A stretch of DNA of 58,547 nucleotides from contig CACEMT010000007.1 in NCBI GenBank assembly GCA_902560685.1, positions 1-58,547 on the forward strand. Direction: 5' to 3'. The translations under genes were made by a program, and so were the position numbers. This document shows, one piece after another, positions 10,013 through 58,547 of this stretch. The stretch is from an uncultured Pelagibacteraceae bacterium (GTDB taxonomy: Bacteria > Pseudomonadota > Alphaproteobacteria > Pelagibacterales > Pelagibacteraceae). The notes beneath the pieces were generated by a model. The model was given only the letters and a program-made list of their open reading frames with translations. It did no database searches and had not been told where the DNA came from. Within the stretch, counting starts at the first letter, position 1. Every line of letters begins with the position of its first letter.

Positions 10013-13000
10013 ATGCAATTATCTTTTACTAAAAAGAAAAATATTAGAAAAAATTTTGGTAAACTAAAGGAAAGTTTATCAATTCCCAACCTTATTGAAG
10101 TTCAAAAAAATTCTTATAAACAGCTTACTGAATATAAAGCTGAAGTAGATCAAAATTTAATAAAAGGTTTTGACAGAGTTTTCAAAAGTATTTTTCCAAT
10201 CGAAGATCTAAATGATAAAGCTACACTTGAATATGTTTCTTATAGGTTAGAAAAGCCAAAGTTTGATGTTGAAGAATGTATATCCAGAGGTTTAACTTAC
10301 TCAGCAGCTTTAAAATGTACTCTAAGACTTGTAGTTTATGAAATAGATCAAGAAAATAATACTAAAGATATTCTTTCTGCAAAAGAGCAAGAAGTTTATA
10401 TGGGAGAAGTTCCTATGATGACAAACAGTGGAACTTTTATAACCAATGGTGTTCAAAGAGTTGTTGTAAATCAAATGCATAGAAGTCCTGGTGTATTTTT
10501 TGACCATGATAAAGGAAAATCGCATGCTAGTGGTAAACTTTTATTTAATTGTAGAGTAATACCAAATAGAGGATCTTGGCTAGATTTTGAATTTGATGTT
10601 AAAGATTTTTTATATTTCCGTATAGATAGAAAGAAAAAAATATTTATTACTACTTTATTGCAAGCCTTAGGTTTTACAAAAAATGATATCGTTAATGAAT
10701 TTTATGAAAAGGATAATTATACTTACGATCAAAAAATAAAAAAATGGAAAACTAAATTTGATCCTGAAAATTACAAAGCAAAAAACTTTTCAGAAGAAGT
10801 TATTGATGCTAAGAATAATAAAGTTGTAGTTAAAATAGGGGAAAAAATTAATTTTTTAACTGCAAAAAAATTAGCAAATGAAGGTTTGAAAGAGATATAT
10901 GTATCAAACCAATCATTAGATGGTAAATTCCTACATAAAGATATTAAAATTGGAGAAGAGATATTAAAAATTGGTACAGAAATAAATGAAACTATTTTAA
11001 ATAAAATTATAGAAAATAATATTGACTTAGTTGAAATCTCAAAAACTAATTCAATAAATAAAGGTCCATATATTTTACAAACTTTGTTTAATGATAAAAA
11101 TGACAATAAAAATGATGCCATAACTGAAATTTATAAGATGTTGAGACCCGGTGAGCCACCAACTTTAGAAATAGCAACACAAATATTCAATAATCTATTT
11201 TTTAGCTCTGATAGATATGATCTATCTGATGTTGGTAGAGTCAAAATGAATTCAAGACTAAATCTAAACTGCTCTGACAAAATAACAATACTAAGAAATG
11301 ACGATATTATTGCAATTATAAAAAAAATGCTTGAACTTAGAGATGGTAAAGATGAGGTAGATGATATTGATCATCTAGGAAACCGTAGAGTTAGATCGGT
11401 AGGTGAATTAGTAGAAAATCAATCGCGCATTGGTGTTTACAGAATGGAAAGAGCAATAAAAGAAAAGATGACTTCATTAGACATAGAGTCAGCAATGCCA
11501 CAAGATTTAATAAATGCAAAACCACTTACAGTCTCTTTAAAAGATTTTTTTGCAACATCTCAATTATCTCAATTTATGGATCAAACAAATCCATTATCTG
11601 AGATAACTCACAAAAGAAGAGTATCAGCCCTGGGCCCTGGAGGACTAACAAGAGAAAGAGCAGGTTTTGAAGTAAGAGATGTTCATCCAACTCACTATGG
11701 AAGAATCTGTCCAATAGAAACTCCTGAAGGTCCTAACATAGGTTTAATTAATAGCTTATCAACATATTCAAAAATAAATAAATATGGCTTTATTGAAAGT
11801 CCATACAAAAAAGTTAAAGACGGAGTAGTTCAAGATTCAATCGAGTATTTATCCGCAATGGAAGAGTCGAAATTTACAATAGCTCAGGCAAATTCTGTTA
11901 TTGATAAAAATGGTAAGTTTCAGGAGCAATTAGTTTCATGCAGACAAAATTTAAATTTTATTTTATCAAAACCAGAAAACATTGATTACATAGACGTTTC
12001 TCCAAAACAACTTGTGTCAGTTGCAGCTTCATTAATTCCATTTTTAGAAAATGATGACGCTAACAGAGCATTAATGGGTTCTAATATGATGAGGCAAGCA
12101 GTTCCATTACTAAAACCCGAAGCACCTTTGGTTGGAACAGGAATAGAAAGTGATGTTGCTTTAGATTCTGGAGTAACAATTGTTGCTAAAAGAGAAGGGG
12201 TTGTAGATAAAATTGATGGAAAAAGAATTGTTATTAAAGCTACTGATGAAAAAGATTATAGTAAATCTGGAGTAGATATTTATAACTTACAAAAATTTAA
12301 AAGATCTAACCAAAATACTTGTATAAACCAAAAACCATTAGTTAGAGTTGGTGATAAAGTAAAATCAGGAGATATTATAGCTGATGGACCATCAACAAAA
12401 ATTGGAGAGTTGGCATTAGGAAAAAATGTTACAGTAGCCTTTATGCCTTGGCAAGGTTATAACTTTGAAGACTCTATATTAATCTCTGAAAGATGCGTAA
12501 CTGACGACGTATTTACTTCGATTCATATCGAGGAGTACGAGGTTATGGCTAGAGATACAAAATTAGGCGAGGAAGACATTACAAGAGATATTCCTAATGT
12601 AAATGAGGAGTCTTTAAAAAATTTAGATGAGTCAGGCATAGTTTATATTGGTGCAGAAGTTAAACCTGGAGATATTCTTGTTGGAAAAGTTACCCCAAAA
12701 GGTGATTCAGCTTCTGGTCCAGAAGAAAAACTTTTAAGATCTATTTTTGGAGAGAAAGCTATAGACGTAACTGATACTTCTTTAAAAATGCCAAGTGGAA
12801 GTGGTGGTATAGTTGTTGATGTAAGAGTTTTTAATAGACATGGTATAGAAAAAGACGAAAGATCAATTACTATAGAACGTGCTGAAGTTGATTCAGTTCA
12901 ACAAGATAAAATAGTTGAAGAAGAAATTTTAGATAGAAGTATTAAGCAAAGAGCTTTATCTATTTTAAATGGCATCAAATTGAGCAAAAAAGTAAAAAAT

Positions 13001-18395: not shown

Positions 18396-18425
18396 CATCA
18401 AAAATAAAAACTAAATATAAAAATT

Positions 18426-18797
18426 ATGCCAACTATTAACCAGTTGTTAAGAAAAAAAAGAATTAGACCATTAGGAAGAAACAAAGTTCCTGCGCTTGAA
18501 AAACAACCTTTGAAAAGAGGAGTTTGTGTAAAAGTTTATACAACTACACCAAAAAAACCAAACTCTGCATTAAGAAAAGTTGCAAGAGTAAGACTGTCTA
18601 ATGGATTTGAAGTAACAGCTTATATTCCTGGTGAAGGTCATAACTTACAAGAACACTCAGTTGTTTTGATTAGAGGAGGCCGTGTTAAAGATTTGCCAGG
18701 CGTACGTTACCATATATTAAGAGGAAATCTAGATACCCAAGGAGTTGCAGACAGGAAGAAACGAAGATCTCTTTATGGAACTAAAAAAGGTAAATAA
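18426..18797 (+). CDS. rpsL: 30S ribosomal protein S12
   Basis: S12 sits at the decoding centre. The 123-residue protein contains [19 protein letters not shown], including the lysine altered in streptomycin-resistant strains, and the [10 protein letters not shown] loop with the aspartate that is often methylthiolated upstream (VKDLPG). It opens the long str-S10-spc run and is followed 2 bp later by rpsG. Confidence 0.98.
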
Positions 18798-54810: not shown

Positions 54811-57018
54811 TTAATATAGCGGGTTATCTTTAAAGAAATTTTTAAGTTTAATAGGTTTTTGTTCTAAAATATATCTATAAACATTATAATTTTCCAAAAC
54901 TCTTTGTACATAATTTCTGGTTTCTTTAAACTTAATTAATTCAATCCAATTTACATAATCAACTTGATTTTTTTGAGGATTTTTATTTATCTTTTTCCAA
55001 TATCTTACTCTTTTAGGCCCAGCATTGTATGCTGCTATTGCAAACGGATATGAGCCATCATATTCAAGAATTAGTCCTGCTATATAATGTGAACCAAGAT
55101 TAACATTATACTCTGGATCTGAAGTTAATCTAGATTTTGAATATGGTAATTTTGCTTGTTTTGCTACAACCCTCGCTGTGTAAGTCATTAACTGCATTAA
55201 TCCTTGGGCTCCAGCATGACTATGTGCGCTAGTATCAAATTCACTTTCTTGTCGTATTATAGATAAAATAAATGCAGATTCTGGAATTTTTCTACCATTA
55301 ATAACTTTTGGGGTACTTATTATTGGATAATTGTATTTATTATGAAATCTTTTATCATAAGATGCAATTTTTGCGATTTGAATTGCAAAATCAAATCTTG
55401 ATATATCAGATGCTAATTTTGCAGCCAAGACTTCACTGCCCATAGGAATATTATCATTAGCCAAACCTCTTAATAAATGTTTTGTATGTTTATCTTTATT
55501 CAGTTCATCCAATAAATGTACTATTTTGACCACACCTTTTTTATAAAATTTTTCTGCATACGCTTTATCTACTTCCATAAGTTTATCTAACTCTATTTCT
55601 TTGTTTGGATTAATTTTTAAATGTGAAAGTTGACCGTAGTAAGTAGTTAAATATTTTGATGCTTCGCTGAACCATTTAATCGCCATCTCTTTTTCACCAA
55701 TTTTTTCATAAGTTCTACCTAACCAATAAGCACCTCTAGATAGGCTTATTGGATAACCAACATTATTATAAAAATTTGTAAAATGACCTTCCGCTAATAT
55801 AGGATCTTTTAAGAAACTTAATGCTATCCAACCACTCATCCATTCCGCTTCAGCATATTCTGGACCTTCAGTTAATGCATGATTACTTACTATTTTATAA
55901 GCAGTTTCATATTTTTTTTTATAAATTAAAGATCTACCAATAATTCCTCTTTCTACCCACCACTTATCAGGTCTTACCATGTAATCTTTTGTATTTTTAA
56001 TTTTTAGTAAAATTTCAAGCGATCCATCAACTCGTCCTCTTTTTCTTCTCCACTTTAAACGGTCATAATTTAATCCATGGTTATTTTTAAACTTTTTTGG
56101 CACTTTACTAATTGCTGCATCTACACCATAAGATTTACTCATTAATAACTGTCTTGCTGTATAAAGAAGCTGATAGTCTTTTGGTAAATATCTTAACATT
56201 CTTTTTAAATCCCAATATTTATTTTCATAAGCTAAGTAATCAGCTCTTTTAATATAATCATTAGAATTCAAAATATTTTTGAATTTTTTTCTAAAGAATT
56301 TCATATCGCTTCTACTTAAATCAGCAGTTATCCAACCTTCTTTAATTAATTTATTTCCTTCTGAAGACTGTCCTTTTAAAAGATTTGCTTGCCCTAAAAC
56401 AATTTTACCAAAACCACTTAGGGGTGGATTTTTATTGAACCAATCAATAATAAAATTTGCTGATAAATCTTTTGCAGACATTTTGTGTTCCGCTAAATAC
56501 CTAATTCTATTTATTCTTGGGTATTTTGGATTAAGCTCAATAAATCTTTTGTATTCATAAAAAGGCAATTGATTTCCTGTAGTTAAAAGATGCTTCCATC
56601 TTATAAAATTATATATTGATTTATCTCGAGCTTTCTTTGCAGTTTTTTCAGCAGAAGACCATTTTCTTTGCTCCATGGCTCTAATAGCTATTTTTGCTAC
56701 TTCATAATCTTTTTTTGAATAATATTTAGATTTTTTTGCTCTAGTCTTTTTTTCTTTTTTAAGAACCAGTGGCTTACTCATTGGTATAATTTCACCATCA
56801 ACGATTAATTTCTCGACTTTTTTTGCCTTTATTTCGTAAGTTTTTAGCTTGGGTTTTTTTAAAGGAATTATATTATTTACTAAATTTTTACCTTCTTGAG
56901 CTTTGTTTATAGCTGGTTTTTTTTGTGGTAAAATAATTTTTTCATCAGCGTATAAGAAATAATTACTCCCAAAAATAACAAAGGAAACTAACAGTAATTT
57001 TAAGAGTATTTTTTTCAT
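54811..57018 (-). CDS. slt: Soluble-type lytic murein transglycosylase
   Basis: The 735-residue protein has an N-terminal signal peptide (MKKILLKLLLVSFVIFGSNY, cleaved near ADE). A long alpha-helical superhelix of TPR-like repeats follows. The C-terminal SLT domain has the catalytic glutamate in IIRQESEFDTSAHSHAG, then GLMQLM and AYNAGPKRVRYW. It cleaves peptidoglycan glycan strands to give 1,6-anhydro ends in the periplasm. The piece at 55181-55228 is duplicated inverted inside smpB. It is divergent from dapA across 43 bp. Confidence 0.94.
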   Translation of the reverse strand: MKKILLKLLLVSFVIFGSNYFLYADEKIILPQKKPAINKAQEGKNLVNNIIPLKKPKLKTYEIKAKKVEKLIVDGEIIPMSKPLVLKKEKKTRAKKSKYYSKKDYEVAKIAIRAMEQRKWSSAEKTAKKARDKSIYNFIRWKHLLTTGNQLPFYEYKRFIELNPKYPRINRIRYLAEHKMSAKDLSANFIIDWFNKNPPLSGFGKIVLGQANLLKGQSSEGNKLIKEGWITADLSRSDMKFFRKKFKNILNSNDYIKRADYLAYENKYWDLKRMLRYLPKDYQLLYTARQLLMSKSYGVDAAISKVPKKFKNNHGLNYDRLKWRRKRGRVDGSLEILLKIKNTKDYMVRPDKWWVERGIIGRSLIYKKKYETAYKIVSNHALTEGPEYAEAEWMSGWIALSFLKDPILAEGHFTNFYNNVGYPISLSRGAYWLGRTYEKIGEKEMAIKWFSEASKYLTTYYGQLSHLKINPNKEIELDKLMEVDKAYAEKFYKKGVVKIVHLLDELNKDKHTKHLLRGLANDNIPMGSEVLAAKLASDISRFDFAIQIAKIASYDKRFHNKYNYPIISTPKVINGRKIPESAFILSIIRQESEFDTSAHSHAGAQGLMQLMTYTARVVAKQAKLPYSKSRLTSDPEYNVNLGSHYIAGLILEYDGSYPFAIAAYNAGPKRVRYWKKINKNPQKNQVDYVNWIELIKFKETRNYVQRVLENYNVYRYILEQKPIKLKNFFKDNPLY
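55181..55228 (-). repeat. 48-bp inverted repeat, copy A (native, within slt)
   Basis: This stretch encodes the [15 protein letters not shown] part of the SLT domain. Its reverse complement is found without a mismatch at 58236-58283. The slt reading frame continues normally on both sides, so this is the donor copy. Confidence 0.97.
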
Positions 57019-57048
57019 AATAAATTTAATGAATCGTTATCAATTTAT

Positions 57049-57056
57049 GTTATAAG
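57049..57056 (+). promoter_or_regulatory. Extended -10 promoter for dapA
   Basis: TG-T-TATAAG matches the extended -10 form. Its end is only 5 bp before the dapA ATG (57062), so transcription should start at or next to the start codon, giving a leaderless mRNA. No good -35 or ribosome-binding site is visible. Confidence 0.4.
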
Positions 57057-57061
57057 ATCCC

Positions 57062-57946
57062 ATGTTTAAAGGTTCAAATGTAGCACTTATAACACCATTC
57101 AAAGATAATAATCTAGATGAAGAAAATTATATTAAATTAATAAATTTTCATCTTGAAAATAATACTAATGGTTTAGTTCCAGCAGGAACAACGGGCGAAT
57201 CTCCCACTTTAAGCCACAGAGAGCACGAAAAGGTAATAGAACTTTGTATAAATGAAGTAAAAGGAAAGATTCCAGTAATTGCTGGTACAGGGTCTAATTC
57301 AACTGAAGAAGCTGTTGCACTAACAAAGCATGCAGAAAAAGCTGGAGCTGATGGAGCATTAGTTGTTACACCTTATTATAACAAACCGACACAAGAAGGA
57401 CTTTATCAACATTATAAAGCTATAAATGATAATACAAATCTACCTATTATAATTTACAATATTCCAAGCAGATGTGTAATAGATATGTCAGTTGATACGA
57501 TGGCAAGATTATTTGAGCTTAAAAATATTGCCGGTGTGAAAGACGCGACAGGAGATTTAAATAGACTTGATCAAACAATAAAAAAATTGGGACCAGAATT
57601 TATTCAGCTTACTGGTGAAGACGGTCTTGCATTTGAATTTAACAGAAGAGGTGGAGTTGGTATTATTTCTGTTACTGCTAACATTGCACCAAAATTATGC
57701 TCCGATATGCAAAAATATTCTAAATCAAAATCTGATAATGAACTTAAGGAAGCGGAAAGAATAGACCAGATGTTACAACCATTACATAAATCATTATTTA
57801 TTGAGAGCAACCCCGCACCAGTAAAATATGCTGCAAAACTTTTAGGATTATGTGATGATGAAATAAGACTTCCATTAGTAAAAATTAAACAAGAAACTCA
57901 AGAAGAAGTTAAAAAAGCGTTATCATCAGCTAAACTAATTAGTTAA
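57062..57946 (+). CDS. dapA: 4-Hydroxy-tetrahydrodipicolinate synthase
   Basis: DapA condenses pyruvate with aspartate semialdehyde in lysine and peptidoglycan synthesis. The 294-residue TIM-barrel protein has the [16 protein letters not shown] motif (about 43-58), the catalytic tyrosine in [10 protein letters not shown] and the Schiff-base lysine in AGVKDATGD (about 160). It overlaps smpB by one base. Confidence 0.97.
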
Positions 57947-58455
57947 TGAAAAAAAAAACCATTCCTGGTTTAAAGATTATTTGTTTAAATCGAAAAGCAA
58001 GTTTTAACTATTTTTTTCATGAGCTAATTGAAGCTGGTCTTGTTTTAAAGGGATCGGAAATAAAATCAATTAGATCTGGTAAAGTTAATATTGCAGATTC
58101 TTATGCAATAGAAAAAAATGGTGAAATTTATTTAATTAATTCACATATTTCATCTTACAAAGAGGCAAGTTATTCAAATCATAATCCAACCGATGAAAGA
58201 AAGCTTTTACTCAATAAAAAAGAAATTAATAAACTCGCACATAGTCATGCTGGAGCCCAAGGATTAATGCAGTTAATGACTTAAATAAATGCTGAAGGTT
58301 TTACCTTGGTGCCCACAAAAATGTATTTTAAAAAAGGTAAAGCAAAAATCGAAATTGCTGTAGCGAAAGGAAAAAAACAGTACGACAAAAGGCAAACTAA
58401 AAAAAACAGAGATTGGAATCGTGATAAAGCAAGATATTTCAGAAAATCGAGTTAA
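57946..58455 (+). pseudogene. smpB: SsrA-binding protein SmpB, interrupted by a 48-bp inverted insert
   Basis: SmpB brings tmRNA to stalled ribosomes. Residues 1-96 are normal ([33 protein letters not shown]). The next 16 codons are the inverted slt copy and end with a TAA stop at 58282-58284. Normal SmpB then resumes in the same frame: [33 protein letters not shown] and [13 protein letters not shown], to the stop at 58455. As written, the protein is 112 residues and lacks the C-terminal tail needed in the ribosomal A site. About three native codons (an xGK-type link) seem to have been replaced. This is either a templated mutation or a chimera. Confidence 0.92.
58236..58283 (+). repeat. 48-bp inverted repeat, copy B (insert in smpB)
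   Basis: This exact reverse-complement copy of 55181-55228 interrupts smpB. It ends within the TAA stop that terminates the frame. The two copies are about 3.0 kb apart and in opposite orientation. Confidence 0.97.
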
Positions 58456-58547
58456 TATTTCTTATTTGTCCATAGGTTCTAATCTTGGCAATAAAAAAAG
58501 AAATATAGAAAAAGCTAAGTATCTTCTAGAAAAAAACCAAGTTAAAA
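58421..58547 (+). CDS. folK: 2-Amino-4-hydroxy-6-hydroxymethyldihydropteridine pyrophosphokinase, N-terminal part
   Basis: A GTG at 58421 opens a frame that reads through the window end (42 codons). It includes [20 protein letters not shown], the N-terminal HPPK pattern. FolK works in folate synthesis. The start overlaps the smpB 3' end by 35 bp. GTG is the best start seen, but a start further inside (TTG) cannot be excluded. The gene is partial because the window ends. Confidence 0.7.

Follow-up and report, generated by a model that had tools for sequence, protein, structure and literature searches.

The smpB gene near one end of the window, by which we mean the whole 58,547-bp stretch of DNA analyzed, is interrupted by an exact inverted copy of 48 bp from a nearby lytic transglycosylase gene, slt. 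We consider it probable (roughly 70%) that this copy records a double template switch that became fixed while the genome of one cell was being amplified and assembled. When the whole contig was compared with itself, positions 58236-58283 on the forward strand equaled the reverse complement of 55181-55228 at 48 of 48 bases with zero differences, confirming the mismatch-free inverted copy first reported from a sequence-only reading of this DNA. The exact match is bounded by mismatches at both ends, with only a weak resemblance upstream, and 3,007 bp separate the two inverted arms. No inverted exact repeat in the window is longer, the second longest being 19 bp, and base composition alone predicts 2.8e-17 inverted pairs of at least 48 bp. 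Used as a pattern with up to three mismatches allowed, 47 of the 48 bases gave one match per orientation in the whole draft genome, which is of SAR11 type (Pelagibacteraceae).

The donor stretch (55181-55228, reverse strand) encodes part of a lytic transglycosylase, in a region marked by 12 residues, and lies within an slt-like gene (54811-57018, reverse strand) whose frame of 735 amino acids is intact; its product matches five transglycosylase profiles, every one under the curated cut-off. The recipient was identified as smpB by the NCBIfam profiles PRK05422 and TIGR00086, with scores of 126.7 and 115 bits that fall narrowly below the cut-offs of 130 and 119.1 because the product is truncated. 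The native 5' part of the gene (57946-58235, forward strand) comprises 96 complete codons plus the first two bases of codon 97 (Leu), and has 77.6-85.2% nucleotide identity with 29 relatives. The copy starts at the third base of that codon and adds 15 codons, read in the frame used by slt, before a TAA stop (58282-58284, forward strand) that spans the right junction, its TA being contributed by the copy and its final A (58284), where the open reading frame ends, by smpB. Donor slt reads TAC (Tyr) at this place; the stop codon is thus a product of the junction and not part of the content of the insert, and the initial description of 16 in-frame codons carrying their own stop has to be amended. 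Beyond the junction, the native 3' part of smpB (58284-58455, forward strand), present as a single copy in the draft genome, is severed from translation. As was initially proposed, it resumes the original frame: its read-through translation shows a 10-residue segment and, further on, RKSS, and the gene runs on to its normal end. The gene has no further break besides the copy site, and no second, intact smpB was found in the 81.22%-complete draft assembly.

Comparison with relatives shows what the copy replaced. Between the same smpB flanks, the native sequence is 9 bp long in 29 relatives (the aligned flanks of relative L004 show this spacing too), each encoding a SmpB of 156 amino acids, so that 48 bp occupy the place of 9 bp, a net gain of 39 bp that is frame-neutral and allows the original frame to resume. 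The suggestion that the copy had displaced a few native bases therefore holds as a replacement, and a pure insertion does not fit. The eight closest relatives (L064-L071, among the best 80 of 484 found) are 84.6-85.9% identical to the window over as much of the slt-dapA-smpB stretch as they contain, dapA being named by eye and the L068 alignment spanning only 1.4 kb. Their alignments pick up again directly after the copy site, and the contig is collinear with relatives on either side of the copy over 54811-58547 (3.7 kb). Over this stretch the contig is accordingly scarred locally and not grossly chimeric; the sequence-only reading had stated that an artefact would mark it as chimeric.

Elsewhere in the clade, smpB was found intact. 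All 80 named relatives (the best 80 of 484) encode the full 156 amino acids. Within the genus, 118 of 151 genomes match the truncated SmpB, the 33 without a match being as expected for drafts; in 115 other genomes the smpB match has E <= 6e-44 and no internal stop, with the window genome and the two weakly matching ones, G020 and G026, set aside. The left junction, searched with up to three mismatches in 399 congeneric genomes, was found only in the window's own and in none of the 398 others; as this set holds one genome per species, the result covers other species. The right junction is exact only in the window genome, and 31 other genomes match it at two to three mismatches: in the seven with a known smpB position (G001, G013, G052, G078, G082, G086, and G093) the near-match lies away from that gene, and none of the remaining 24 genomes has the left junction. 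The exact 47-base pattern of the copy had no match in the genome_contigs collection, which possibly omits the window's own genome, and viral_contigs, scanned for the copy's left end, likewise had none, a result that says little. The comparison with close relatives that the sequence-only reading had proposed showed 9 bp at the replaced place, and the search of the clade for the same insert came back empty.

These data dispose of three explanations. An slt gene of another species is ruled out as the source, as the window's own slt matches the copy at 48 of 48 positions and the best stretch in any relative (best 80 of 484) at 43 of 48; the same figures indicate that the copy derives from the cell's own slt in a very young event. 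An older insertion inherited in the clade is ruled out by the absence of the left junction from all 398 other genomes and by the lack of any difference from the donor. Finally, a programmed or functional element is ruled out, since the copy occurs in no other genome searched and leads to a stop.

Whether the event took place in the cell or in the laboratory had been left open at first, and rightly so, as the evidence is circumstantial; it leans toward the laboratory. We favor an artefact because (i) the copy is private, lies 264 bp from the contig end, and belongs to a genome whose named relatives mostly carry single-cell identifiers, and (ii) where the relatives examined all keep a gene intact, its knock-out is more readily explained by an error than by an allele that survived. 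During strand-displacement amplification, a growing 3' end in smpB would have moved to the opposite-sense slt strand, about 3 kb off in the same branched molecule, copied 48 nt of slt, and then returned to smpB at a point 9 nt beyond where it had left. Coverage may have been thin near the contig break, in which case the faulty molecule could have become the assembly consensus, and the cell itself would probably have had an ordinary smpB.

The draft genome is consistent with such an origin. It comprises 1,077,484 bp in 37 contigs, the first 17 of which are numbered by falling length, and is 81.22% complete. The window is a complete contig (C7), of which only 264 bp (58284-58547) follow the copy; assuming even placement over the 37 contigs, the chance that a site lies this close to a contig end is about 0.02, a figure that counts against a mutation in the cell. 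Among the named relatives (best 80 of 484), 77 of 80 bear identifiers of single-cell type (AG-, AH-, SAG-MED, or SCGC), although 23 of those 77 carry the archive title 'MAG', which counts against a single-cell origin. The prefixes AH-, SAG-MED, and SCGC denote single-cell identifiers. The AG- form has been used for a GORG-Tropics single-amplified genome (PMC11247762). From the record names of the relatives and the draft state of the assembly, we infer that the window genome is itself a single-amplified genome.

Chimeras formed by phi29 polymerase during multiple displacement amplification (MDA) resemble the copy in several respects. They are known from single-cell genomes, where 85% of 475 chimeras were inverted and 83% of the inversions (337 of 406) joined segments less than 10 kb apart (PMC1855051), as do the present arms; the same source puts the frequency of chimeric junctions in MDA product at about one every 22 kb. 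Read-level chimeras did not differ between WGA-X and MDA (PMC5519541), and the assemblies of a benchmarked single-cell workflow contained 1.5 misassemblies per 100 kb along with 3.0 indels per 100 kb (PMC11247762). Unlike a typical MDA chimera, the copy involves two switches, with a return within 9 bp. In human DNA, approximately 1.0 million two-level chimeric read pairs were counted versus 38.9 million one-level pairs (PMC4595205), making double chimeras about forty times rarer than single ones, which counts against an artefact.

The junctions also depart from the MDA pattern. With the bases of relatives as a stand-in, the overlap at the left junction is zero in seven of eight close relatives and one base in the other, and at the right junction it is one base in all eight; the terminal positions 58236 (C) and 58283 (A) may equally be native smpB bases. 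Were this genome's own bases at the left junction C-G-C-A and not those of the relatives, the overlap there could reach four; the codon CTC is found at this leucine in only 3 of 80 relatives (best 80 of 484). A seven-base motif, TGCTGGA, common to the copy and to smpB of relative L004, was considered as a switch point and rejected, as it sits 12 bases inside the copy. By contrast with these 0-1 shared bases, MDA chimeras mostly share 2-21: at least two complementary bases were present in 93.5% of inverted MDA chimeras spanning less than 10 kb (PMC1855051), and overlaps in phi29 chimeras peak at 6 nt (PMC4595205). In the part of a further study drawn on here (PMC6515389), no rate is given for chimeras with blunt junctions, the pipeline retaining only overlaps of more than two bases. 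The double-template-switch footprint first proposed fits the 3,007-bp inverted copy and the 9-bp replacement, and the scarcity of shared bases at the junctions is unlike a textbook phi29 chimera.

It is this scarcity that leaves a minority share of the probability to a private mutation in the sampled cell, in which replication or repair would have involved a double template switch or, at a break, the uptake of 48 nt of slt. Exact junctions nearly devoid of shared bases suit mechanisms that dispense with annealing better than they suit phi29 chimeras; in addition, the flanks are collinear with relatives to the contig end, and smpB is otherwise unbroken. We nevertheless regard such a mutation as unlikely, given that it was absent from the other genomes searched, that it disrupts a gene intact in the relatives examined, and that a 3-kb reach is far above the tens to hundreds of nucleotides within which short-range switches have been searched for (PMC7954356). 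That a SAR11 cell truly carried the allele is doubtful: it would entail a kilobase-range, nearly blunt double switch and the loss of SmpB, with a streamlined bacterium living, at least temporarily, without trans-translation.

Published models of template switching capture part of this structure. In the four-point model (Loytynoja and Goldman; PMC7954356), an inverted segment 2->3 lies between L->1 and 4->R, as it does here, where the inverted fragment stands within collinear native flanks; as in that model, a few bases are lost locally and the inverted repeat left behind is perfect. The model's templates are tens to hundreds of nucleotides away (PMC7954356), a range that the 3,007 bp of the present case exceed. 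A template switch in the cell would be inherited by other cells of its lineage, and the genomes searched cover this species with one assembly. Bacterial switches that correct quasipalindromes likewise copy from an inverted partner, but begin at a near-perfect inverted repeat (PMC7954356), whereas the sequences neighboring the copy are only weakly similar.

We also considered a pure assembly error, in which no molecule would have contained both junctions, and reads with a single switch or a low-coverage graph path were joined through the slt stretch. The nearness of the contig end (264 bp) is compatible with such an error, as is the apparent single-switch slt/smpB chimera in another genome, SAG-MED48. 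A shared stretch of 48 bp offers an assembly graph built with long k-mers little to join on, and two independent chimeras would have had to hit smpB within 9 bp of one another; we judge this explanation highly improbable.

The SAG-MED48 chimera came to light in a survey of the 80 named smpB loci (best 80 of 484; 630,382 bases), where an exact inverted pair of 40 bp stands out from others of 21 and 20 bp. Contig JACWEP010000015.1 opens with an inverted 40-bp copy of the smpB end joined to the interior of slt, the arms lying at 1-40 and 1888-1927, 1,847 bp apart, with the slt placement based on collinearity. Judged by relative L083, the smpB/slt junction shares 7 bases. The contig end of this public single-cell genome thus appears to carry an amplification chimera with one switch, again linking smpB and slt, and is a parallel to the window's copy.

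Long inverted pairs are otherwise scarce in drafts. We found no other exact inverted pair above 21 bp in 490,341 bases of the window genome (pairs up to 10-20 kb apart), and a survey of 1,160,299 bases from other drafts, in 60 stretches, gave a maximum of 23 bp; as no pair exceeded this length, artefacts of this class must be rare too, which tempers the preference for an amplification artefact. Two one-contig genomes were also surveyed, over 400,000 bases: no pair in G012 was longer than 19 bp, but G082 contained one of 110 bp and another of 54 bp, so inverted copies as such exist in closed genomes too. The 110-bp pair (L054:9029-9138 and 12083-12192, 2.9 kb apart) consists of sequence that appears tRNA-like by eye, and the arms of the 54-bp pair are 8.8 kb apart. 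The 23-bp pair, in draft G017 (L195:136-158 and 835-857), has one arm 136 bp from the contig start and is possibly a second small template-switch scar, or a chance match. Draft genomes lend themselves to a screen for short, exact inverted copies lying close to the ends of contigs.

Were the interruption real, SmpB would consist of 97 of its 156 native residues followed by 15 foreign ones, with the C-terminal part gone. Loss of the SmpB tail abolishes trans-translation, and that process would be disabled; the locus would also let one observe directly, in an uncultured bacterium, a template switch that is long-range and poor in microhomology. The case serves mainly as a caution: from the SmpB loss predicted for this genome one should not conclude that trans-translation was lost. 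Among 61 genomes of the genus, 43 yielded a tmRNA over the cut-off, and all 10 near-complete ones gave a match, so the clade carries the trans-translation system. The search of the 81.22%-complete window draft returned no tmRNA over the cut-off, this draft being one of 18 of the 61 genomes with that result. Its contig C16 starts at a point that in G033 is 265 bp past the tmRNA; in G012 the corresponding distance is about 2.2 kb. The missing gene therefore probably falls in an assembly gap; a parallel loss of tmRNA was for this reason set aside as uninformative support for a real loss of trans-translation.

Several further observations concern RNA genes in these genomes. Alpha-tmRNA matches below the cut-off were present in 18 of 60 other genomes. 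A 28-bp stretch that matches the alpha-tmRNA 3' tail occurs twice on contig C13 of the window's genome (L043:16757-16784 and 18421-18448), on either side of two reverse-strand open reading frames of 163 and 247 amino acids, with a 20-bp direct repeat beside each copy; this arrangement has the look of a small mobile element at ssrA bounded by its attachment sites. The window's genome also contains a bablM sRNA match (L043:923-992) that scores 66.4 bits against a gathering score of 38.
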